A DNA stretch of 32,363 nucleotides from Candidatus Methylomirabilota bacterium. Its GTDB lineage: Bacteria > Methylomirabilota > Methylomirabilia > Rokubacteriales > CSP1-6. Positions within the stretch are counted from its first letter, which is position 1, and the number at the start of each line of letters is the position of its first letter. The stretch spans positions 1 to 32,363 of the forward strand of contig DASTFB010000017.1 of NCBI GenBank assembly GCA_035709005.1, in the 5' to 3' direction. The notes below the pieces were generated by a model. It was not told the origin of the DNA, searched no databases, and saw nothing but the letters and a program-made list of their open reading frames with translations. This document shows, piece by piece, positions 1,098 through 10,617 of this stretch. Position numbers and translations under genes: made by a program.

Positions 1098-1136
1098 AAA
1101 ACGGGCACCTCGGAGTCCATCCGAAGTGCCCGTTTT
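1098..1136 (-). terminator. Rho-independent-like hairpin after the truncated tRNA-Lys
   Basis: AAAACGGGCAC at 1098-1108 pairs with GTGCCCGTTTT at 1126-1136, and an inner TCGG/CCGA pair extends the stem. Read on the minus strand it follows the 3' end of the tRNA-Lys remnant and closes with a U-run. It probably was the original terminator of tRNA-Lys before the island inserted. Confidence 0.7.
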
Positions 1137-1139
1137 CAA

Positions 1140-1187
1140 TGGTGGGCCGTCAAGGACTCGAACCTTGGACCCGCTGATTAAGAGTCA
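1140..1187 (-). pseudogene. tRNA-Lys 3'-half remnant (distal att site of an island)
   Basis: These 48 bases are identical to 8202-8249, the 3' half of the intact tRNA-Lys including the encoded CCA. Identity stops abruptly in the anticodon-loop/stem region (cacatcc here against cagctgc there). Tyrosine recombinases commonly cross over in tRNA anticodon or T-loop segments and leave such a displaced 3' end at the far side of the element. It lacks the 5' half and cannot fold as a tRNA. Confidence 0.85.
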
Positions 1188-1330
1188 CATCCGGCAGGGC
1201 AGCATCGGACACCATCGCGCAGAATCCGCAACAATGACGCGGCTGAAACGCGCCGACCTGGGCTCGATTCTGTGCGTTGCTTGATCTGGCTTTTCCCCCA
1301 GTTTTGACCCGCCCAGGTTGCCCGCCGGCA

Positions 1331-1645
1331 TCAGGCGTTGACCGGCTGGCGCCCAAACTTCTGCCGCTTGAGTGTGGGCAGATTCCTGATGGTCTTGCCG
1401 ACTCTCTCCTCGGCTAGCCGCAGCTCATAGAGGCTCTGGAGGTTGAGCCAGAATTCTGGGCTCGTGCCAAAGAAGTGCCCCAAGCGCAGGGCGGTGTCGC
1501 CGGTGAGGGCCCGCTGTCCGTTCAGGATCCCCGTGATGCGGTTCGTCGGCACCTTCACCTGGCGGGCCAGTTCCGCGGCGCTCATACCGAGCGCCTTCAG
1601 TTCTTCAGCAAGATGTTCGCCAGGATGGATCGCCAAGCGTGCCAT
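1331..1645 (-). CDS. higA: HigA-family antitoxin
   Basis: This 104-residue helix-turn-helix protein begins with the family hallmark MARLAIHPGEHLAEELKALG. The XRE-type helix-turn-helix covers about residues 20-45 (MSAAELARQVKVPTNRITGI), followed by 'ALRLGHFFGTSPEFWLNLQ', typical of HigA/VapI antitoxins. It lies 18 bases downstream of the HigB toxin gene, the toxin-first order characteristic of higBA. It should neutralise HigB and repress the shared promoter. A palindromic element upstream of higB is the candidate operator. Confidence 0.93.
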   Translation of the reverse strand: MARLAIHPGEHLAEELKALGMSAAELARQVKVPTNRITGILNGQRALTGDTALRLGHFFGTSPEFWLNLQSLYELRLAEERVGKTIRNLPTLKRQKFGRQPVNA

Positions 1646-1663
1646 GGTTTGCTTTCCCGTCCC

Positions 1664-1948
1664 CTAATGATAGTCCACGATTTCAACATTGACCGGGCCC
1701 ACGGAACCCTCCGGCCACTCGAAACAGATGCGCCACTGGTCGTTGATGCGAATGCTGTACTGGCCCGTCCGGTCGCCGCTCAGCGTCTCGAATCGGTTAC
1801 CTGGCAAGGCAGCCAAGTCCTTCACCGACACGGCCGCGTCAAGACGATCGAGCCTCAGCTGCGCGGACCGTGCGAACCCAGAGAACGCCTTAACTCGCTT
1901 CCCGGCGGCAAATTCTCGAGTGCGCTTGTCCCGGTAGCTGACGATCAT
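1664..1948 (-). CDS. higB: HigB-family (RelE superfamily) mRNA-interferase toxin
   Basis: This 94-residue protein begins MIVSYRDKRTREFAAGKRVK and ends with the diagnostic 'YSIRINDQWRICFEWPEG....VEIVDYH'. HigB/GraT toxins cleave mRNA at the translating ribosome. The central 'LPGNRFETLSGDRTGQYSIRI' matches the family. It is the first gene of the pair, with higA 18 bases downstream. The ribosome site AGGAG lies unusually close to the ATG. Confidence 0.93.
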   Translation of the reverse strand: MIVSYRDKRTREFAAGKRVKAFSGFARSAQLRLDRLDAAVSVKDLAALPGNRFETLSGDRTGQYSIRINDQWRICFEWPEGSVGPVNVEIVDYH

Positions 1949-1966
1949 CTCCTATGGTGGCGTAGA

Positions 1967-1988
1967 TTATGCGTGACGTCAAGCGTAA
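1967..1988. promoter_or_regulatory. Candidate higBA operator/promoter
   Basis: An imperfect 22-bp palindrome, symmetric at 18 of 22 positions, is centred on TGACGTCA with outer TTA/TAA arms. It lies 18 bases upstream of the higB ATG. On the minus strand its end supplies a CATAAT-like -10 box, so repressor binding here would block polymerase. The symmetry is observed; HigA binding is inferred. Confidence 0.5.
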
Positions 1989-2409
1989 CTGTTAGGGATG
2001 GGAGACCTCAACCGCGCCAGCCGTCCTGCCTGCGCGCCGGGAGTTCCTGGTCAGCGCGGGGCGCTCGCGCGGCTGTGGACGGAGGAGCCACTGCCTTTCT
2101 GTTTACCCCGAGTTCACCCGGAGATGGGCTGCGGTCCTCACGCTGGAAACCGACAAGCGTCTGTCATTATGTCTGGTCCCTTCTGTCAGTCGTTGCAGAA
2201 GACGAAGGGACGCGGGCGACGAACGAAGCCGTGTGGCATGCTGGGCGAGCAGCCCCCTATCCGCGGGTCGCGGTCTTTGCCACTCGCCGTCTACCGCTCG
2301 CGGTCATCGGCCGGGGTACAAGCGACGCGAGCGCCGGGTCCGCTGCACTGGGTGGTTCGGGCGGCCCTTGAACGTCCTTGTTCAACCCCACGATCCGGTG
2401 CGTGCTCAT
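1989..2409. other. Non-coding or decayed stretch inside the island
   Basis: About 420 bases separate the higBA operator from the DUF1330 gene. Open frames exist on both strands, but none has a recognisable domain, a convincing ribosome site or protein-like composition. I see no repeats, RNA genes or integrase remnant. It may be scrambled remains of island genes. Confidence 0.4.
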
Positions 2410-2709
2410 CTACCACGTCGAGCCCTCGACAAGGAGAAAATCGAGTCTCGACCCACTCTGGCGCAGCCGGATCAGTGGAGCGTATTCGGGGTCGTTGTAC
2501 CAAGCCCGTGCCTGCTCCATCGACGGGAACTCAATGAGAGTGAGACCGGTGAGCTGAGGTGGGGTGCCTTCAAGCACTTCCCAGGGATCACTCGATCGGA
2601 CGATGTATTTCCCACCGTGCTTCGCAACGAGTTCTCCGACCTTCTCGCGATACGTCGGGCCCCATGAGGCATCCCAAATATTGTAGAGTCCGACCGCATA
2701 GGCTGCCAT
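2410..2709 (-). CDS. DUF1330 domain-containing protein
   Basis: This 99-residue protein begins MAAYAVGLYNIWDASWGPTY. It contains the ferredoxin-like DUF1330 pattern: 'REKVGELVAKHGGKYIVRS' then 'LTLIEFPSMEQARAWYNDPE' and 'YAPLIRLRQSGS'. The family is small, cytoplasmic and of unknown biochemical role, related to dimeric alpha/beta-barrel monooxygenase-like folds. A GGAGGGGG tract directly precedes the ATG. It is the last gene of a minus-strand run of cupins and appears intact, although the gene upstream is frameshifted. Confidence 0.85.
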   Translation of the reverse strand: MAAYAVGLYNIWDASWGPTYREKVGELVAKHGGKYIVRSSDPWEVLEGTPPQLTGLTLIEFPSMEQARAWYNDPEYAPLIRLRQSGSRLDFLLVEGSTW

Positions 2710-2755
2710 ACCCCCTCCATCCGATTCTGTTTGCACGCCAGGTTGTTCGCCCTGG

Positions 2756-2995
2756 TCAGGTGCACGGCGGCGAATAGAGATAGAAGCCGGCGTCGTACCA
2801 AGTTTCCTCGAACCGCGCGCCTCCTCGCCCGCCGGGTGCATGTGCCGGGGCAGGTGGGCATTGGCGTCGAACTTGACGAGAACTGTGCGAGCATCTGTCG
2901 TGTCGTCGTTACGGAGTAGTTTCCAAGCGATCCCGGGCCATTTCGTCGGAACCCAGTCAAAGTTTGCTGGAGTCGATCTCGACAACTTTTGCCAA
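2756..2995 (-). pseudogene. Frameshifted ChrR-like cupin
   Basis: A ribosome site (GAGGAGAGG) and a TTG start give LAKVVEIDSSK. An extra base then shifts the frame to FDWVPTKWPGIAWKLLRNDD and, further on, the cupin metal motif 'HLPRHMHPAGEEA'. A second shift after this leads to 'RFEETWYDAGFYLYSPPCT' and a stop. Read together these pieces form a recognisable cupin barrel of the ChrR type, with two frameshifts and a missing strand. The gene is therefore broken, unless sequencing error explains both shifts. Confidence 0.65.
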
Positions 2996-3176
2996 ATGGT
3001 CCTCTCCTCAACGTCGCCATCAAGGCTGCTACGATCGGGACGGGGCCGTCATTCCGCTGGCACGATACGCCGCCGTGCGCGAGCAGGAACGATCCGGCGG
3101 AGGCGGCGAGGCGCTGACCGTCGAGCCGAAGGCTCAACTTGCCCTCCACGACGTACCAGGCTTTCCGTTGTGGCAT
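2996..3176 (-). pseudogene. Truncated cupin fragment
   Basis: The frame opening at 3176 gives MPQRKAWYVVEGKLSLRLDG and 'QRLAASAGSFLLAHGG', the middle strands of a small cupin barrel. The metal-binding N-terminal half is missing because the intact neighbouring cupin ends at 3217. The later sequence (...RNDGPVPIVA) resembles the end of such a domain but seems out of register. It is probably the leftover of a second cupin gene. Confidence 0.55.
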
Positions 3177-3216
3177 GCGTGTACCAGTTTCCCTGAGTTG
3201 TTCGGGTCGCCACGAG

Positions 3217-3636
3217 TCATTGCACGGGGACGGCCAACGGTTCGCCCTTCTTCGCAACGTGGAAGACCAGGAATTTCAGAGGCGCCGTCTGGCTGGCATT
3301 CTTGTCGTCGTGCACGGTGCGGGGCGGCAGGCTGCCGCTCTGGCCCACAGTAAGTGTGACGGATGGCTTGCCTGCGATCTCCAAGAGCATCGTTCCTTCG
3401 AGGATGTAGGCGAAGGCGTCGCCCGGGTGATAGTGCTTGCCCATGTTGGCGCCGGGCGCAAGCTCGGCCATGAACATGCTGGCTTCCTTCCCATCGCTCG
3501 TGACGAGGTCCGCCTTGTACAGTTCCGCCACGCTCACCTTGCCCTGTTGCATGGCGTTGACGAGCCCGGCTGCCGTGACCCCGAGGACCATTCCGAAAAC
3601 GAGCGCTGCGCCTACCGTGAGCGTTGAGCGTCTCAT
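3217..3636 (-). CDS. Exported single-domain cupin
   Basis: This 139-residue protein has an N-terminal hydrophobic segment (residues 7-29, after MRRSTLTV) that should export or anchor it. A cupin barrel follows: motif 1 'GKHYHPGDAFAYILEG' supplies metal ligands H68 and H70, though the usual glutamate position is shifted or replaced (D73), and motif 2 'LPPRTVHDDKN' gives H109. AGGAGG precedes the ATG. Upstream is a near-perfect sigma54 promoter, and the divergently encoded neighbour is a sigma54-type regulator, so this gene is its most likely target. The substrate is unknown. Confidence 0.85.
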   Translation of the reverse strand: MRRSTLTVGAALVFGMVLGVTAAGLVNAMQQGKVSVAELYKADLVTSDGKEASMFMAELAPGANMGKHYHPGDAFAYILEGTMLLEIAGKPSVTLTVGQSGSLPPRTVHDDKNASQTAPLKFLVFHVAKKGEPLAVPVQ

Positions 3637-3680
3637 GAGAACCTCCTGGCTCCTGAAGGTCGGACGTGACCGACCTCTTC

Positions 3681-3695
3681 GCAACCGTAGTGCCA
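3681..3695 (-). promoter_or_regulatory. Sigma54 (-24/-12) promoter for the cupin gene
   Basis: On the minus strand the sequence is TGGCACTACGGTTGC, matching the RpoN consensus TGGCAC-N5-TTGC, with the invariant GG and GC separated by ten bases. Transcription would start near 3669, leaving a leader of about 33 bases before the ATG at 3636. A short inverted repeat (GGTCGG/CCGACC, 3658-3675) spans the predicted start. Confidence 0.65.
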
Positions 3696-3721
3696 TACGC
3701 CGACCGACGCGGAAGTGCCCG

Positions 3722-3757
3722 CGGCATCCGTAGTTTTCCCTGTTGTCTCGGATGCCG
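3722..3757. promoter_or_regulatory. Inverted repeat, candidate shared enhancer
   Basis: CGGCATCCG (3722-3730) and CGGATGCCG (3749-3757) are perfect 9-bp inverted copies with an 18-base spacer. The centre is about 70 bases upstream of the predicted cupin start and about 75 upstream of the predicted regulator start, where an activator of sigma54 polymerase could serve both. The spacer is longer than in NtrC sites, so the role is inferred. Confidence 0.45.
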
Positions 3758-3788
3758 ACCCGCCATAGACTTCTGGTCGCGCTGGCTG

Positions 3789-3803
3789 TGGTATACCAGT
3801 TGC
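3789..3803 (+). promoter_or_regulatory. Possible sigma54-like promoter for the regulator gene
   Basis: TGGTATACCAGTTGC keeps the GG and GC dinucleotides at ten-base spacing and the TTGC box, but deviates in the -24 part. It includes a 10-bp palindrome, TGGTATACCA, so it could instead be an operator. Its predicted start near 3815 falls inside the ribosome site of the downstream gene, which weakens the promoter reading. Confidence 0.3.
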
Positions 3804-3821
3804 GGCCACGGGAGGGTTCGG

Positions 3822-6800
3822 ATGGCGGATTCGACCTCGCTCCATCCCACGGACCGCATCCTCGGCAACGCCACAGCGATGGCCGAGTTGCGTGCACAGA
3901 TCCGTCACCTCGCCACCTTCGACACCGTAGGAAGTCCCCATGTACCCACCCTGCTGCTGCAGGGCGAGACAGGTACGGGCAAAGGACTGCTCGCGAGGGT
4001 CATCCACGACAGCGGTCCGCGCGCTCACGGGCCATTCGTGGACGTCAACTGCGCCGCCATTCCAGAGCATCTGCTCGAAGCCGAGCTGTTTGGTTTCGAC
4101 GTCGGTGCCTTCACCGACGCCAAGCGCGCGAAGCCCGGGCTGTTCGAGTCAGCTTCCGGCGGCACGCTCTTCCTCGATGAGATCGAAGCGTTGCCGATGA
4201 CCCTACAGGGTAAGCTCCTGCGATCGATCGAGGACAAGCGCGTGCGTCGACTCGGAGCGGTTACCGAGCACGCGGTGGACGTGAAGGTCGTGGCGGCCGC
4301 GCAGCGCCAGCTCCACGAGGCGGTGGCCGAGAAGCGCTTCCGACCGGATCTCTACCACCGCCTTGCCGTCGTCGTCGTCCAGATTCCGCCGCTGCGCGAG
4401 CGGTCTGACGACATCGTTTTGCTGGCGAAGTACTTCCTGAATGTCTACGCCAGCGCACATGGACTCGCCACAAAGCAGCTTGCTCCCGATGCGCAAACGT
4501 GGTTGTGGACGTACGACTGGCCAGGAAACGTACGCGAGTTAGCGCACCTCATGGAGCGGATCACATTGCTCGTGCCTGAGCCGGTCGTCGTTGCACACGT
4601 GCTGAAGCGCCTGTTGGTCACGCATCCGCGTCTCGCAGGTCCATCGGTGCCGGAGACGTCCGTTCCGTCGATTGTCGGCGGGGACGAGGAGCAGATCCGA
4701 GCAGCCATCGCTCGAACCCATGGCAACGTCGTGCGGGCCGCGCGCCTCCTGGGGCTGAGTCGAAACGCGTTCCGCTATCGGATGCTCCGCTATGGTATCG
4801 AGCGTCGGCCCACGGCGCACGCGGACGGTCCTGCCGAACGCCACGCCGAAGTCTCGGAGAATGATTCGGGTGGCGCAGTCCACGTCCACGTGGACGGTGC
4901 GGAGCCGACCTGGGAGAAGAAGCTCGTTGCGGTCGCGACCATCCACCTGACGTTCCCTCGGACAGCGGACATCGATGCGGCGCATCCTCAGCCGTGGACG
5001 CTTGCGAAGCGCTGGGAGCAGATCCTCACGGACAAAGTGCACGGCTTCGGAGGCATCCTCCTCAACAGCAGCCCGTGTTTATTCACCGCGCTGTTCGGTA
5101 TCCCACACACGCTGGAGCAGATGGCGGTACGTGCCTTACACGCTGCGCTCGCAATCCGCCACGCCGTGGCCGAGACGGCGACGGTGGACAGCCCTGAGCT
5201 GCGCGCCGCCGTCCACCTTGGCGACGTGCTCCTGGACCTCCGGCCCCCCTTTATTCCCGCACGGCTTCTCGCTGTTGGCGATACCTTGGCCTATCCCATA
5301 CGGCTGCTCGGTCAGGCTGCAGCCGGCGAGGTCGCCGTCTCGTCCGCCGTCCAGCGTGTCGTCGCGCGCGACTGCTCGCTGGTCGCGCGCGAGATCGTCG
5401 TAGAACTCGGCGGTGCGAGTCCGGATCGTGCGTACATCGTCACCAGCATCCGGCCGGTCGGTGCTCACCGCACTAGCCGGTTCGTCGGACGCGAGCGTGA
5501 GCTCGCGGAACTCTCCCGGATGCTCGACCACGTGTCGCAAGGACGCGGGCAAGTGGTGGCCATCGTTGGCGAGGCCGGTGTCGGCAAGTCGCGGCTGCGC
5601 CATGAGTTCACCGAAGCCGTCCGCGCGTCGTGCCTTGTCGTCGAGGCCGTCTCCTCACCCGGGCAGTCGCATGCGTTTGTGCCGCTCATCGAGATGCTCA
5701 AGCGCTATTTCGCAATCGACGCCCGTGACGACAAACGGATGCGGCGTGAGAAGGTCACCGAGCGAGTCCTCACCCTCGACAAGCATCTCGAGGAGACGCT
5801 GCCGTATCTTCTCCCGCTCCTCGATGTCGTCGATCCTCGCTCGACACTCGCACAGATGGATCCAGCAGCGCGCCGGCGACGCACGTTCGACGCCGTCAAG
5901 GCGTTGCTGCTGCGTGAGAGCCTCAACCAGCCCATCCTCGTCGTCGTGGAGGACCTTCACGGCATCGACGACGAGACGCTCGGGTTCCTGGACGTCCTGG
6001 TCGATGCCGTGCCCGAGGCGCGCGTTCTGCTACTCGTGACGTACCGGCCGGAGCACGGGCATGGCTGGAGCGGCAAGACCTACTACACGCAACTGCGGCT
6101 CGATCCGCTCGATGCAAAACAGGCCGACGAGATGACGGCAGCGCTCGTCGGCGAGGCGCCAGATCTAAAGGAACTCGTCGTGCGCAAAGCGCAAGGCAAC
6201 CCGCTCTTCATCGAGGAAATCGCCCGGGCGCTGCTCGATGGCGGCCCGGACGCGTTCGAGCTGCCGCCCACGATCCAGGGCGTGCTCGCCGCGCGCGTCG
6301 ATCAGCTGGCCAAAGATGAACGCGCGCTGCTTCAGACGCTGGCCGTACTGGGCCACGAGTTCCCGCTTACCCTTGTGCAAAACGTTTGGGATGGTACCGC
6401 CGACGAACTGCGAGTGCTCCTCGCACGACTGCAGGCGAGCGAGTTCATCCGCGAGCGCCCCGCGTTGCCGGAAACAACGTACAGTTTCAAGCACGCGCTG
6501 ACGCGAGACGTCGCTTACACCGCCCTGGATCCCGAGCTGCGGCGCCGCGTGCACGTCCGAGCCGCGGAGGCGACCGAAACGCTCTTCGCCGATGGACTCG
6601 ATGATCACTACCACGTCCTCGCGCATCATGCGCAGCGGGCCGGCCTGACCTCGAAGGCCGTCGACTACCTCGGGCTAGCAGGCCGGCAGGCTGTCCAGCG
6701 CTCGGCCTACGCCGAGGCGATCGCCCATTTTAGGAGCTCGCTCGCGCTGCTGTCCTCGCTGCCGCCCGGCCGTGAGCGAAATCAGCGGGAGCTCGGAGTA

Positions 6801-7919
6801 CAGACCTCGCTGGGCGCCGCGCTCATGGCCACTGAGGGGATGGGGGCGCCGCAGGTCGAGGAGGTGTTCCAGCGCGCCCGCGAGTTGTGCCGCGAGGTCG
6901 GCGAGACGCCACAACTGTTCCGGGTGTTGCAGGGGCTTAGTGTCTTCTATGCGCTGCGCGTCAAGCTGCGGACGTCGGAGGAACTGGCTGACGAGCGCCG
7001 GCGACTGGCCGAGCGGCTCGAGAATCCGGCCCTCGTCCTGCAGGCCCAGATTGCCCGGGGACACGTCTTGCTCGCTCTCGGCGAGCTGCCAGCGGCCCGC
7101 GCCGAGCTTGAGCGGGCGGCAGGACTCTACGACCCACGTCAGCATCATGCATTGGCCTTCGGCGGCGTCGATCCCAGTGGCCGAGACCATGCGGCCATCG
7201 TTCTTTGGTTGCTCGGCTATCCGGACAAGGCGCTGGCGAGCATGCGGCAGATGCTGGCGATCGCTCGCGAACAGCCGCACCCGTTCACGTTGACCGTGGC
7301 TCAGCTCTTCGCGGCGATGCTGCATCAACTGCGCCGCGAGAGCGGGCTGACGCGCGAGTGGGCGGAAGCCGCCACGGTGCTGACGACACGGCATGCTTTC
7401 GCCATGTGGCGGGCCATGGCGCTCGTGCTGAGCGGCTGGGCCTTCGCAGCAGAGGGGGACACAAGCGAGGGCATTCTGCGGATGCGTCGCGGCATCGACG
7501 ACTGGCGTGCGACGGGAGCGGAACTTCTGCGCCCGTATTTTCTGGGCCTCCTCGCCGAGGCGCTCGCGTACTCGGGTGGGCATGACGAAGGGCTGTTGCT
7601 ACTTGGCGAAGCGCTCGATATTGTTCGCCGGACCGAGCAACACTGGTGTGAGGCCGACCTGCTCCGCCTGCAAGGCGACGTCCTGCTCGCCGCCGCGCGT
7701 GAGCGCGAGGCCGCCGCCTCGCTCGACGCCGCGCTCGGGCTCGCTCGACGGCAAGAAGCGAAGTCGCTCGAGTTGCGGGCCGCGATGAGTCTGTCTCGTC
7801 TCTTGCAACGCCGAGGCGACTATGACGAAGCGCAAACGCTATTGGCCGGCGTTCACGGTTGGTTCTCCGAAGGATTCGATACGCCCGACCTGAGGCAAGC
7901 CGCCACGCTCCTCAGGTAG
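3822..7919 (+). CDS. Sigma54-activator-like / cyclase-like / STAND ATPase / TPR fusion regulator
   Basis: This predicted 1365-residue cytoplasmic regulator has several modules. Residues about 12-265 are a sigma54-activator AAA+ domain: Walker A GETGTGKG 48-55, Walker B GGTLFLDE 113-120, DWPGNVREL 232-240. The sigma54-contact loop reads GAFTDA (95-100) instead of GAFTGA. A Fis-type helix-turn-helix follows (about 290-328). Residues about 366-545 resemble a class III nucleotide-cyclase fold but lack the metal aspartates. A second ATPase of the AAA_16/STAND kind starts at FVGRERELAEL (554), with Walker A GEAGVGKS 583-590 and Walker B ILVVVEDLH 705-713. The rest is helical and TPR-like. GGAGGG precedes the chosen ATG; the upstream frame overlaps promoter DNA. 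The likely target is the divergent cupin. Confidence 0.85.
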   Translation: MADSTSLHPTDRILGNATAMAELRAQIRHLATFDTVGSPHVPTLLLQGETGTGKGLLARVIHDSGPRAHGPFVDVNCAAIPEHLLEAELFGFDVGAFTDAKRAKPGLFESASGGTLFLDEIEALPMTLQGKLLRSIEDKRVRRLGAVTEHAVDVKVVAAAQRQLHEAVAEKRFRPDLYHRLAVVVVQIPPLRERSDDIVLLAKYFLNVYASAHGLATKQLAPDAQTWLWTYDWPGNVRELAHLMERITLLVPEPVVVAHVLKRLLVTHPRLAGPSVPETSVPSIVGGDEEQIRAAIARTHGNVVRAARLLGLSRNAFRYRMLRYGIERRPTAHADGPAERHAEVSENDSGGAVHVHVDGAEPTWEKKLVAVATIHLTFPRTADIDAAHPQPWTLAKRWEQILTDKVHGFGGILLNSSPCLFTALFGIPHTLEQMAVRALHAALAIRHAVAETATVDSPELRAAVHLGDVLLDLRPPFIPARLLAVGDTLAYPIRLLGQAAAGEVAVSSAVQRVVARDCSLVAREIVVELGGASPDRAYIVTSIRPVGAHRTSRFVGRERELAELSRMLDHVSQGRGQVVAIVGEAGVGKSRLRHEFTEAVRASCLVVEAVSSPGQSHAFVPLIEMLKRYFAIDARDDKRMRREKVTERVLTLDKHLEETLPYLLPLLDVVDPRSTLAQMDPAARRRRTFDAVKALLLRESLNQPILVVVEDLHGIDDETLGFLDVLVDAVPEARVLLLVTYRPEHGHGWSGKTYYTQLRLDPLDAKQADEMTAALVGEAPDLKELVVRKAQGNPLFIEEIARALLDGGPDAFELPPTIQGVLAARVDQLAKDERALLQTLAVLGHEFPLTLVQNVWDGTADELRVLLARLQASEFIRERPALPETTYSFKHALTRDVAYTALDPELRRRVHVRAAEATETLFADGLDDHYHVLAHHAQRAGLTSKAVDYLGLAGRQAVQRSAYAEAIAHFRSSLALLSSLPPGRERNQRELGVQTSLGAALMATEGMGAPQVEEVFQRARELCREVGETPQLFRVLQGLSVFYALRVKLRTSEELADERRRLAERLENPALVLQAQIARGHVLLALGELPAARAELERAAGLYDPRQHHALAFGGVDPSGRDHAAIVLWLLGYPDKALASMRQMLAIAREQPHPFTLTVAQLFAAMLHQLRRESGLTREWAEAATVLTTRHAFAMWRAMALVLSGWAFAAEGDTSEGILRMRRGIDDWRATGAELLRPYFLGLLAEALAYSGGHDEGLLLLGEALDIVRRTEQHWCEADLLRLQGDVLLAAAREREAAASLDAALGLARRQEAKSLELRAAMSLSRLLQRRGDYDEAQTLLAGVHGWFSEGFDTPDLRQAATLLR

Positions 7920-8164
7920 TAGGCATTAAGAATGAACGCTTTGCGCGTGGCTGCCGGGATCTGAACCGCGATCCGCTGCGGGCTGTTGCTCCCGCGAAAA
8001 GACGGCGCACGCCCAGTCCCCTGTCAGACACTCAAACTCGGGGGACCGGGGCTTCGACGGGGCAACGTCGGGGCAAAATCCGTTCCCCCGTTGCTTGCTC
8101 CAGTAAGCCGTTTCCCCCCGGATTTCGTGCGGCGCCGAGTTATCACCTGCTGATCGAAAATCAG
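7920..8164. other. Intergenic stretch at the proximal island end
   Basis: About 245 bases lie between the regulator and the tRNA-Lys terminator. I find no convincing gene. The minus-strand frame of about 90 codons has no family resemblance. An integrase gene is often found at this position of tRNA islands, but none is recognisable. Confidence 0.4.
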
Positions 8165-8194
8165 CGGGCACTTCCGCTTTTCCGGAAGTGCCCG
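8165..8194 (-). terminator. Terminator of tRNA-Lys
   Basis: CGGGCACTTCCG (8165-8176) pairs perfectly with CGGAAGTGCCCG (8183-8194) around a six-base loop. On the minus strand the stem follows the tRNA-Lys CCA end by seven bases and is followed by a short U-run (GATTTT). The stem shares its GGGCACTTC core with the hairpin at 1098-1136. Confidence 0.75.
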
Positions 8195-8201
8195 TGATCA
8201 T

Positions 8202-8277
<76 letters not shown>

Positions 8278-8286
8278 GTCTCCCCG

Positions 8287-8322
8287 TGGTGCGCCTGGCG
8301 GGAGTCGAAGCCAGCCTGCGGC
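8287..8322 (-). pseudogene. tRNA-Arg 3'-end remnant
   Basis: The 24 bases at 8286-8309 match 9516-9539, at the 3' end of tRNA-Arg(CCG), with a single mismatch. On the minus strand they read ...TTCGACTCCCGCCAGGCGCA then CCA. Matching GCCGCAGG continues behind a five-base insertion. The 5' half is absent. It lies 9 bases from tRNA-Lys, where a complete tRNA-Arg would be expected in a His-Arg-Lys cluster. Confidence 0.65.
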
Positions 8323-8533
8323 TCCCGAGCGGATGCCAGGACGGACATCAGGGTACAGCCAGCGAGAAGCCAAGACAATCCCGACCTTTTCAGAACCGGC
8401 CCGAGTCTCGGGGAGGACCCGTCACTCATCGGCGCTCGCGCCGCGGGGCGAGGTAGATGGTCGCCGGCTTGCACCTGCACACAGGAGAGCGCGGCGACGG
8501 CGAAGCCGATCGCAGCCGCACCAGGAGGCAGTC

Positions 8534-9124
8534 ATGACGAAACCAGCAATCCTCACCGCCGGCGCCCTGGCCATCAACGCCTGCCTCGGCGGCCAGACCA
8601 GTGCGCAGGTGGCGCCGTCCGCGGCCGTCGGCGAGCGCCAGGGCGTGGTGATCGCCGAGCGGGCCACCCTGGCCGCCACCGTGAAGGACATCGACCGGAG
8701 CCAGCGGCTGATGACCCTGCAGATCCGCGAGGACAGGACCGTCAAGCTCGACGTGCCCAAGGAGGTCAAGAACTTCGATCAGATCAATGTCGGCGACGCG
8801 GTCGAGGCCGAGTTCCTGAACGCGGTCGCCATCGCCATGCGGCCTGCCGGGACGCCGGCCGCACCGACCGAGGCGACGACGGTCAAGGTGGCGCCCCGGG
8901 GCGATCTGCCTGCCGGAGCAGTAGTGAAGACCAAGCAGATCACGGCCACCGTGGAGACGATCGACTACGACTCGCGAACGGTGACCCTCAAGGGCCCGGA
9001 GGGCGAGACTCGCACGATCGCCGTCGATCCAAGCGTCGAGCGCTTCCGCGACGTGAAGGTCGGGGACCAGGTCGTCGTGCGGCACACGGAGGCGCTAGCC
9101 ATCATCATCAAGAGAGAGTCCTGA
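8534..9124 (+). CDS. Exported protein with two repeated beta-rich domains
   Basis: This 196-residue protein begins MTKPAILTAGALAINACLGG, a signal sequence with a weak lipobox (INAC). The mature part holds two similar segments, about residues 36-95 and 135-194. Each reads 'tATVk.ID...r.vTL......vkldV......f..vkVGD.V......A.AI', suggesting a duplicated OB-like or beta-barrel unit. No enzymatic motif is seen. AGGAGG is placed well before the ATG at 8534; the upstream extension of the frame is not protein-like. The gene lies between tRNA-Lys and tRNA-Arg on the opposite strand. Its function is unknown. Confidence 0.8.
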   Translation: MTKPAILTAGALAINACLGGQTSAQVAPSAAVGERQGVVIAERATLAATVKDIDRSQRLMTLQIREDRTVKLDVPKEVKNFDQINVGDAVEAEFLNAVAIAMRPAGTPAAPTEATTVKVAPRGDLPAGAVVKTKQITATVETIDYDSRTVTLKGPEGETRTIAVDPSVERFRDVKVGDQVVVRHTEALAIIIKRES

Positions 9125-9206
9125 CCGGAGTAGTGGTGCGCGCAGGCGCCTTGGGGGTAGACTCGTCGGCACCGCGATTGCCCGTGCTCGCGGCTGGAGG
9201 TGGGCG

Positions 9207-9494
9207 ATGCTCGGATTCCTTCTTGGCGTGATCGCTGGCGGGCTGGCCGGCTATTACTGGCGAGGAAACATTCGCGACTACGTTTCTACCCGCGTCCCCG
9301 ATCTCCGTAACCGAGCGGCGGATGGCCTGGGCACCCTCGGCGAGCGGGCCAGCACCGTGCTCGAGCGAGCGCGAACGCGCATCGATACCACCGTACGGAC
9401 GGGGCAACAACGGCTGCGGACGACGGGCAGGACCGAAGGAGAGCCGGGGCAGGGGTCTGGCCTCGGGGCGTCCGGTGCCGGCGAGCACGGATAA
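9207..9494 (+). CDS. Small membrane-anchored protein (YtxH-like)
   Basis: This 95-residue protein begins with one membrane helix (MLGFLLGVIAGGLAGYYWRG). A charged, probably helical stretch about residues 22-80 follows (RNRAADGLGTLGERASTVLE), with a Gly-rich tail. The layout resembles YtxH-type stress proteins but no family motif is certain. GGAGGTGGG precedes the ATG. It follows the duplicated-domain protein by 82 bases on the same strand and may be co-transcribed. The function is unknown. Confidence 0.65.
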   Translation: MLGFLLGVIAGGLAGYYWRGNIRDYVSTRVPDLRNRAADGLGTLGERASTVLERARTRIDTTVRTGQQRLRTTGRTEGEPGQGSGLGASGAGEHG

Positions 9495-9516
9495 CCTCAC
9501 CAACCCGGTGGTGTGG

Positions 9517-9593
9517 TGGTGCGCCTGGCAGGAGTCGAACCTGCGGCCTTTGGCTTCGGAGGCCAACGCTCTATCCAACTGAGCTACAGGCGC
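9517..9593 (-). tRNA. tRNA-Arg (anticodon CCG)
   Basis: On the minus strand the gene starts GCGCCTGTAGCTCAGTTGG. The anticodon stem TTGGC/GCCAA encloses CTCCGAA with anticodon CCG. The T-stem GCAGG/CCTGC has loop TTCGACT. The acceptor is GCGCCTG/CAGGCGC and CCA is encoded. A partial copy of its 3' end is found at 8287-8322. Confidence 0.97.
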
Positions 9594-9610
9594 GTCCGGC
9601 TCCGGTGAGC

Positions 9611-9688
9611 TGGGGTGACCGAGGGGAATCGAACCCCCAACCCCTGGAGCCACAGTCCAGTGCTCTAACCAATTGAGCTACGGTCACC
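9611..9688 (-). tRNA. tRNA-His (anticodon GTG)
   Basis: On the minus strand the gene starts GGTGACCGTAGCTCAATTGG, with the extra G at position -1 paired with C73, a histidine identity element. The anticodon stem CTGGA/TCCAG encloses CTGTGGC with anticodon GTG. The T-stem is GGGGG/CCCCT and CCA is encoded. It lies 17 bases upstream of tRNA-Arg in the transcription direction, probably in one transcript. Confidence 0.97.
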
Positions 9689-9711
9689 GCGGGACTGAGC
9701 GAGGATTCATG

Positions 9712-10617
9712 CTACCGGCGGCCTCCGGGCGTGTCAACCGACGCTCCCTCCGCAAGCGCCCGGCGCATGGCCTCCAACCCTTCCCGGGGCCCCCGCAGCG
9801 GCGTCGTCAGCAGGGCCCGGGCGCGGTCGGTGCGCAGGCCGGCGTTCAGCGGGCGGGGGGCGCGCTGGCTCAGCTCCGCGGTGGGCACCGGGGTCAGCGA
9901 CTCCGGGTCCAGGTCGAACACCTCGCAGGCCGTACGGGCGAAGGCGTAGCGATCGAGAATGTCCGGGCCGGCGACGTGGATCACGCCTCCCACCCCGCGC
10001 TCGGCCAGCTCCACGCTGGCCGCGGCGAGGTCCTCGTTGTAGGTCGGGCTCGAGCGCTGATCGACCGCCACTGTCATCCGCTCGCCCGCTCGGAGCCGCC
10101 GGAGAAGCTGGTAGACGAAGTTCTTGCCCTGCGGCTCGGGCCCGTACACCACGGTGGTACGGACGACAAGGCTGCCGGGATTCGCCTGCACGACGGCGCG
10201 CTCGCCCTCGAGCTTGCTCCGGCCGTAGACGGACAGCGGGTCGGGCTGGTCGGCCTCGCCGTAGGGGCCGGCCCGGCCGTCGAACACGTACTCGGTCGAG
10301 TAATAGATGAAGCGGGCCCCCCGCCGGGCGGCCAGGCGGGCTGCGGCGGCCGGCGCGTCGCGGTTCGCGCGGTACGCCTCGGCCGGGACCTCCTCGCAGT
10401 AGTCGACGTGGATGAGGCCGGCCGCGCAGAAGATCCAGTCGGGCCGGGTCTCGTCGATGATCCGCTCGGTGGCGGCGGCATCGGTGAAGTCGAGCTGCCG
10501 CGTGGACGGCGCTGGCGTCCGGTGGTGGGTGGCGATCACGCGATGGCCGCGGGCGGCGAGGCGGACGCTGAGGGCGGCTCCCACCTGGCCAGAGGCGCCG
10601 ACGACCAGGGCGCGCAT
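9712..10617 (-). CDS. RmlD-like NAD(P)-dependent sugar-nucleotide reductase
   Basis: This 301-residue extended short-chain dehydrogenase has the nucleotide-binding motif GASGQVG at 7-13. It has the RmlD hallmarks 'RPDWIFCAAGLIHVDYCE' and 'FIYYSTEYVFDG' (103-114), and the catalytic Y131/K135 pair in VYGRSK. RmlD reduces dTDP-4-dehydro-rhamnose, but relatives serve other nucleotide sugars and no rml genes are nearby, so the substrate is open. It follows an SDR gene by 9 bases and is probably co-transcribed. It ends 24 bases from the tRNA-His gene. Confidence 0.85.
   Translation of the reverse strand: MRALVVGASGQVGAALSVRLAARGHRVIATHHRTPAPSTRQLDFTDAAATERIIDETRPDWIFCAAGLIHVDYCEEVPAEAYRANRDAPAAAARLAARRGARFIYYSTEYVFDGRAGPYGEADQPDPLSVYGRSKLEGERAVVQANPGSLVVRTTVVYGPEPQGKNFVYQLLRRLRAGERMTVAVDQRSSPTYNEDLAAASVELAERGVGGVIHVAGPDILDRYAFARTACEVFDLDPESLTPVPTAELSQRAPRPLNAGLRTDRARALLTTPLRGPREGLEAMRRALAEGASVDTPGGRR

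Follow-up and report, generated by a model that had tools for sequence, protein, structure and literature searches.

The 1.2-kb segment that separates tRNA-Arg(CCG) from tRNA-Lys(CTT) in this genome is very likely a small genomic islet anchored in a tRNA gene. Three observations carry this interpretation: the order and orientation of a repeated tRNA-Arg 3' end, the empty site present in related genomes, and the unrelated inserts found at the same junction in relatives. On the other side, the insert is only 1.2 kb long, the contig carries no integrase, the cargo does not look mobile, and the composition is host-like; furthermore, the displaced tRNA-Arg fragment spans 23 nt of the gene, half the fragment length seen in relatives. 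Below, the window is the whole stretch of DNA analyzed, 32,363 nt of contig DASTFB010000017.1 from a Candidatus Methylomirabilota bacterium.

The tRNA Row and the Direct Repeat

ARAGORN places three tRNA genes on the minus strand of the window: tRNA-His(GTG) at 9611-9687, tRNA-Arg(CCG) at 9517-9593 and tRNA-Lys(CTT) at 8202-8277. The tRNA-Arg gene, putatively the restored target, is intact and has the sequence of its counterpart in the relative G030. Between it and tRNA-Lys lie 1239 bp. A direct repeat on the minus strand, identical at 23/24 positions, connects the two genes. One copy, at 9516-9539, belongs to the tRNA-Arg 3' end and adjoins the insert; it would be the attachment half carried in by the latter. 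The other, at 8286-8309, is a displaced 3' fragment (T-loop to CCA plus one base) with a single mismatch in the T-stem, 9 bp from tRNA-Lys. Read on the tRNA strand, the repeat comprises the T-loop, the 3' side of the T-stem, the acceptor strand, the CCA and one more base; hence, it corresponds to the final 23 nt of the tRNA-Arg(CCG) gene, CCA included, with one flanking base. The original prediction had given the recurring block as the last 24 bases of tRNA-Arg with one mismatch: the repeat at 23/24 before tRNA-Lys is there, and the length of the gene portion was off by one.

When both strands of the window are scanned with the 24-nt block, gaps not being allowed, 8286-8309 comes second only to the tRNA-Arg gene. 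The next best places reach 17/24, at the tRNA-Lys 3' end and at the tRNA-Lys fragment described below, followed by 16/24, a score that no site outside tRNA genes or their fragments exceeds. In the complete genome, the 23-mer occurs with at most three mismatches in three places: the tRNA-Arg gene, the fragment at 8286-8309 and the 3' end of tRNA-Arg(TCT) on contig C72. The repeat is real and far from chance.

A longer fragment, reaching the anticodon loop, was also considered and rejected, the extension past the T-loop being without significance (P = 0.49 in the strict form and 0.11 in the loose form, against 1,424 random segments). An 8-nt block of the tRNA recurs just past the fragment, shifted by 5 nt, which leaves open that 8286-8309 is the worn remainder of a fragment that was once longer.

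The Insert and Its Cargo Genes

The inserted segment itself (8310-9515, no strand) is absent from 34 of the 38 readable family junctions and has a host-like composition; 1.23 kb separate the two repeat copies. The prediction of two small plus-strand genes in the 1.2 kb between these copies, amid tRNA genes that are all on the minus strand, holds. The first open reading frame (8534-9124, plus strand, 196 aa) probably encodes a secreted protein with two similar repeats, and the second (9207-9494, plus strand, 95 aa) a small membrane-anchored protein, both as judged by eye. A GGAGG-like motif is visible by eye shortly 5' of the ATG in both cases, and an alternative upstream start of the first gene is possible at 8333.

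Neither cargo gene resembles a mobility gene. Pfam revealed no family above its cut-off in the two reading frames (sub-cut-off matches only, for the first gene) and, in particular, no integrase family. In the own genome, integrases (PF00589) were detected in seven places, none of them on C17, the contig of the window. Matches to the first gene exist in 7 and matches to the second in 12 of 60 genomes, the own genome being counted in both cases; around the loci of the second gene in the 11 other genomes, no tRNA gene lies within about 1.5 kb. Distant relatives of the first gene are present in three Variovorax records, and 24 plasmid records match it, all below 60% identity. A viral nature of the cargo was rejected, as neither protein has a relative in viral contigs (protein search); for the second gene, a search of phage records returned no phage record.

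The tetranucleotide distance of the insert to the right flank is 0.262, to be compared with a mean of 0.260 (standard deviation 0.031) for 108 right-flank segments. The 12 segments of the neighboring tRNA-Lys insertion, at 0.335-0.398, are unlike the host flank. The host-like composition indicates that the islet is old or came from a close relative; together with the missing integrase, it points to an islet that is probably old, and worn or passively carried. When the insert DNA was searched in the 57 genomes of the family, with seven candidate places scored per genome, no second copy was found, the own genome included. Matches at E<=0.001 occur in 22 genomes (own included). Conservation of the spacing and of both genes in distant relatives, named beforehand as the sign of an old arrangement, was not seen in these 57 genomes at seven scored candidates each: the best match outside the own copy is 122 bp long and 73% identical, in G074, where it corresponds to a homologue of the second cargo gene, and the rest are short or weak.

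These results also bear on another explanation, namely that the islet is itself a minimal mobile element and depends for its movement on an integrase supplied in trans from elsewhere. Such an element would consist of what is seen here, two genes that look complete and a flanking pair of attachment-like copies, and the genome does contain other integrases (the seven PF00589 places). However, no second copy was found in the own or the other 56 family genomes (seven candidates scored per genome), nothing related was found in viral contigs by protein search, and the Arg fragment carries a mismatch, so that this explanation is rather improbable.

The Arg-Lys Junction Across the Family

The region 8202-9720 was searched in 60 relatives, none of them from the same genus, and then in 21 further genomes of the family; tRNA genes were called with ARAGORN on the loci and the spacers extracted, with 6 candidates scored per genome in the first search and up to 35 in the follow-up. 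The genome of the window (G000, 134 contigs) is one of the 57 family genomes. The Arg-Lys junction is readable in 38 of these 57, own included. In 34 of the 38, the two genes are contiguous, with a spacer of 9-62 bp (G017 was read from two matches at a contig edge). The remaining four are interrupted: G000 by 1,239 bp, G064 by 7,542 bp, G069 by about 2.0 kb and G075 by 1,354 bp. The count leaves out 19 genomes with no examined stretch holding Arg(CCG) and Lys(CTT) together (G001, G004, G007, G010, G012, G013, G016, G019, G021, G023, G034, G060, G061, G067, G071, G072, G076, G079 and G080). In G022, which belongs to the same genus as G075, the genes are contiguous at 9 bp. In another family of the class, five loci (L026-L030) have the tRNA row in a different order.

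A contiguous His-Arg-Lys (or Arg-Lys) row without the two cargo genes is the usual state in the family. The comparison proposed beforehand, a look in related genomes for contiguous tRNA genes lacking the two small genes, came out as foreseen: of the 38 junctions that could be read in the 57 family genomes, 34 are of this kind. This, and the unrelated inserts in G064 and G069, supports the claim that a His-Arg-Lys cluster was split by an insertion at tRNA-Arg.

Other Insertions at the Junction in Relatives

The Arg fragment of G064 measures 47 nt and precedes tRNA-Lys by 44 bp, at a distance of 7.5 kb from the intact tRNA-Arg. G069 contains a 48-nt Arg fragment about 2.0 kb from tRNA-Arg, followed by a spacer and only the first 15 nt of tRNA-Lys; no tRNA-Lys was called by ARAGORN on this contig, and the Arg fragment was reported by the same program as a tRNA-Pro gene (L111, 2051-2135). 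Both fragments begin around the anticodon loop and lie on the Lys side.

The insert of G064 contains a terminase-like gene (PHROG terminase large subunit, E=3.4e-20), along with genes for a PEP-CTERM protein, a DoxX protein and an FeeM-like acyltransferase; in G069, a metallophosphatase-like gene is present. No integrase was recognized by Pfam among the seven reading frames of G064 and the one of G069 that were considered, which are part of those present. Apart from the fragment region, a single 17-nt match is all that the two inserts have in common, and the insert of the window shares with either of them only the fragment region. A shared ancestry of the inserts was consequently rejected: nothing is common beyond the fragment region, save for the 17-nt match between G064 and G069, and nothing is shared with the gap of G075. 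The latter, 1354 bp long, holds a receiver-domain gene and a PilZ match below the cut-off of that family. No Arg fragment was found in it; hence, not all interruptions of the Arg-Lys junction bear the signature. Outside the readable junctions, contig C215 of G067 (L112) shows two Arg 3' fragments resembling Arg(TCT), at 551-591 and 1406-1437, 0.85 kb apart, which are perhaps tandem islets.

The repeat could, in principle, also have originated as a decayed tandem duplicate, two Arg genes having once stood before tRNA-Lys, one of which was worn to its 3' end, with the 1.2 kb brought in by an unrelated insertion. In some members of the family (e.g., G020, G006, G027 and G077), Arg(TCG) and Arg(CCG) indeed stand together in the row, and the 8-nt tRNA block 5 nt past the fragment, with the loose extension at P = 0.11, would suit a worn gene. 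However, the fragment corresponds to the CCG gene's 3' end, with a sharp stop at the T-loop (strict extension, P = 0.49), most readable relatives have a single Arg gene, including those most similar at the locus, and two separate events would be required where G064 and G069 display an island layout at the same place. A tandem duplicate is therefore very unlikely. That two contigs were wrongly joined at the 3' end of tRNA-Arg has next to no probability: the genomes are fragmented (134 contigs here), and contigs end at most 40 bp from tRNA-Lys in at least five relatives (G002, G015, G017, G031 and G062), but a repeat of 24 nt is short for a false assembly join, the insert does not differ in composition from the right flank, and two other genomes have the same layout with unrelated inserts.

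tRNA-Lys as a Neighboring Insertion Site

The tRNA-Lys gene has its own displaced end in the window. A 48-nt fragment on the minus strand, at 1140-1187, is 100% identical to the final 48 nt of tRNA-Lys, from which it is 7.0 kb away, and is the sign of a separate insertion at tRNA-Lys (1140-8201, about 7 kb). This supports the original prediction that the locus was hit twice at neighboring tRNA genes, and in G064, both tRNA genes are occupied as well, as shown by the presence of Arg and Lys fragments. Fragments of tRNA-Lys of 48 nt occur in the own genome, G029 and G015, and fragments of 46-50 nt on a second contig of G015 and in G064. On contig C11 of G073 (L186, 1084-1923), a tyrosine integrase gene (PF00589, E=2.2e-33) on the opposite strand, cut by the contig end, terminates 66 bp behind an intact tRNA-Lys(CTT). 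The neighboring Arg and Lys tRNA genes are recurrent landing places.

Several further features accompany tRNA-Lys genes and fragments. The own genome has another Lys 3' fragment, followed by a hairpin, on contig C63 (37927-37985, L194), which suggests a tandem arrangement of islands at tRNA-Lys whose outermost fragment has ended up on a different contig. Hairpins resembling the one after the intact tRNA-Lys were observed by eye behind tRNA-Lys fragments (L113, L114, L115, window 1100-1140 and L110 from 12228 onward); the Lys insertions seem to bring or keep a terminator along with the tRNA end. Just beyond the Lys fragment, at 292-966 of the window, lies a pair of genes for a Phd-like antitoxin and a RelE-like toxin, about 80-92% identical to pairs located by tRNA-Lys or its fragment in G064 and G015 (L110, 10986-11651; L115, 3896-4465). 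Inside the Lys insertion, at 1331-1948, a HigA-family antitoxin (TIGR02607, above the cut-off) adjoins a match to a PHROG annotated as toxin of a TA system. Elsewhere in the own genome, a broken piece of an integrase with one internal stop is found about 130 bp behind tRNA-Lys(TTT) (L187, contig C102, 72365-72502).

Probable Origin of the Islet and Comparison with Known Systems

To account for the islet between tRNA-Arg and tRNA-Lys, an element with a copy of the tRNA-Arg(CCG) 3' end would have recombined with the 3' end of the chromosomal gene. This would have restored the tRNA-Arg gene, displaced its old 3' end to 8286-8309 beside tRNA-Lys and left the cargo between. The putative agent is a tyrosine integrase, which would later have been lost or would have acted in trans.

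An intact tRNA gene accompanied by a displaced fragment of its end is described as the signature of islands in tRNA genes and is credited to tyrosine integrases (PMC4383910). The window presents this arrangement, an intact tRNA gene followed on its 3' side by a like-oriented fragment of its 3' end, and the site is empty in 34 of 38 junctions. As in the islands described for Islander (PMC4383910), foreign genes lie between the intact tRNA gene and its same-orientation fragment on the 3' side. Islander also demands an integrase reading frame and a length of 2-200 kb (PMC4383910). There are 1.23 kb between the copies here and no PF00589 match on the contig or in the two reading frames; unlike the islands described there, an islet of 1.2 kb without an integrase is rejected by both filters (PMC4383910).

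The shared block holds the T-loop and stops short of the variable region and the anticodon loop. This suggests Class II (T-loop) integration as the site class, with a putative strand exchange in the T-loop. The combined T-loop/junction class accounts for 1836 of 3919 islands in Islander (PMC4383910), and integration in a T-loop is known, for example, from mycobacteriophage Ms6 (PMC1762012). Like the core reported for Ms6, the shared block of the islet covers the T-loop through the 3' end of the gene; in Ms6, the core extends to the 5' side of the T-stem as well (PMC1762012), a part that the islet does not keep in register. Unlike Ms6 as described in that report, the islet has neither phage genes nor an integrase (PMC1762012).

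Within the family, the islet uses the same landing gene as, or the neighbor of, the insertions in G064, G069, G073 and the own Lys insertion (1140-8201), with the fragment on the 3' side. These family insertions differ from it by their fragments of 46-50 nt, starting around the anticodon loop, and by their larger inserts. The own Lys insertion deviates from the composition of the host flank, whereas the Arg islet is host-like. The match that stops at the T-loop, as opposed to the start at the anticodon loop in relatives, suggests a different class of integrase. The islet has the layout of a tRNA-anchored island and very probably originated in the same manner. Lacking an integrase and failing two Islander filters, it does not amount to a complete integrative element and is most suitably classed as a small relic or islet belonging to an already known kind of insertion.

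Transcription of the Probable His-Arg-Lys Unit

A sigma-70-like site on the minus strand (TTGACA-17-TAGCAT, 9709-9737), 21 nt before tRNA-His, is the probable promoter of the tRNA unit and the only promoter-like site found in 7950-9900. A site with at least 8/12 matching positions precedes tRNA-His in 31 of the 36 family genomes scored, own included, versus 2.7% of 2,280 random 70-mers. At the other end, right after tRNA-Lys, a terminator-like hairpin occupies 8165-8194 (minus strand), with a stem of 12 pairs and a T-rich tail; a second hairpin overlaps it. A weaker one on the minus strand lies inside the insert (8399-8381). In all, four terminator-like hairpins were found in the region on both strands, versus 0.9 expected. 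Hairpins after tRNA-Lys are visible by eye in many relatives, and in G064, one directly follows tRNA-Arg (1 found vs. 0.4 expected). A promoter for tRNA-Lys inside the insert was rejected, since the best site within 150 nt scores 7/12 and other loci reach 5-9/12.

The promoter before tRNA-His and the hairpins after tRNA-Lys indicate that the ancestral layout was probably promoter-His-Arg-Lys-terminator. The insert would then probably split this unit, placing 1.24 kb and two opposing genes between tRNA-Arg and tRNA-Lys. Transcription of tRNA-Lys would now rely on read-through antisense to both cargo genes, or on a promoter that escaped recognition here. The own genome has a tRNA-Lys(TTT) elsewhere, which may buffer a loss of Lys(CTT).

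A wider reading, unlikely as a whole, joins these elements. The His-Arg-Lys row would be a double docking site of the family, into which unrelated elements repeatedly enter at tRNA-Arg and tRNA-Lys, each supplying a tRNA 3' end of its own and, in many cases, a terminator-like hairpin. Entry at tRNA-Arg would uncouple tRNA-Lys from the promoter of the unit, and the islet would represent a minimal form of such an element, devoid of an integrase and moved in trans, that alters the expression of a tRNA gene it did not enter.

Significance

The locus offers a clear and checkable case of two adjacent tRNA genes that have both been used as insertion sites. The islet is a small, worn instance of a well-known kind of insertion. 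Integrase-less islets below 2 kb do exist, and the stated filters of a standard island finder discard them. Should tRNA-Lys lose its promoter through insertion at tRNA-Arg, the entry of an island would alter the tRNA supply of the host, an effect that could be measured.
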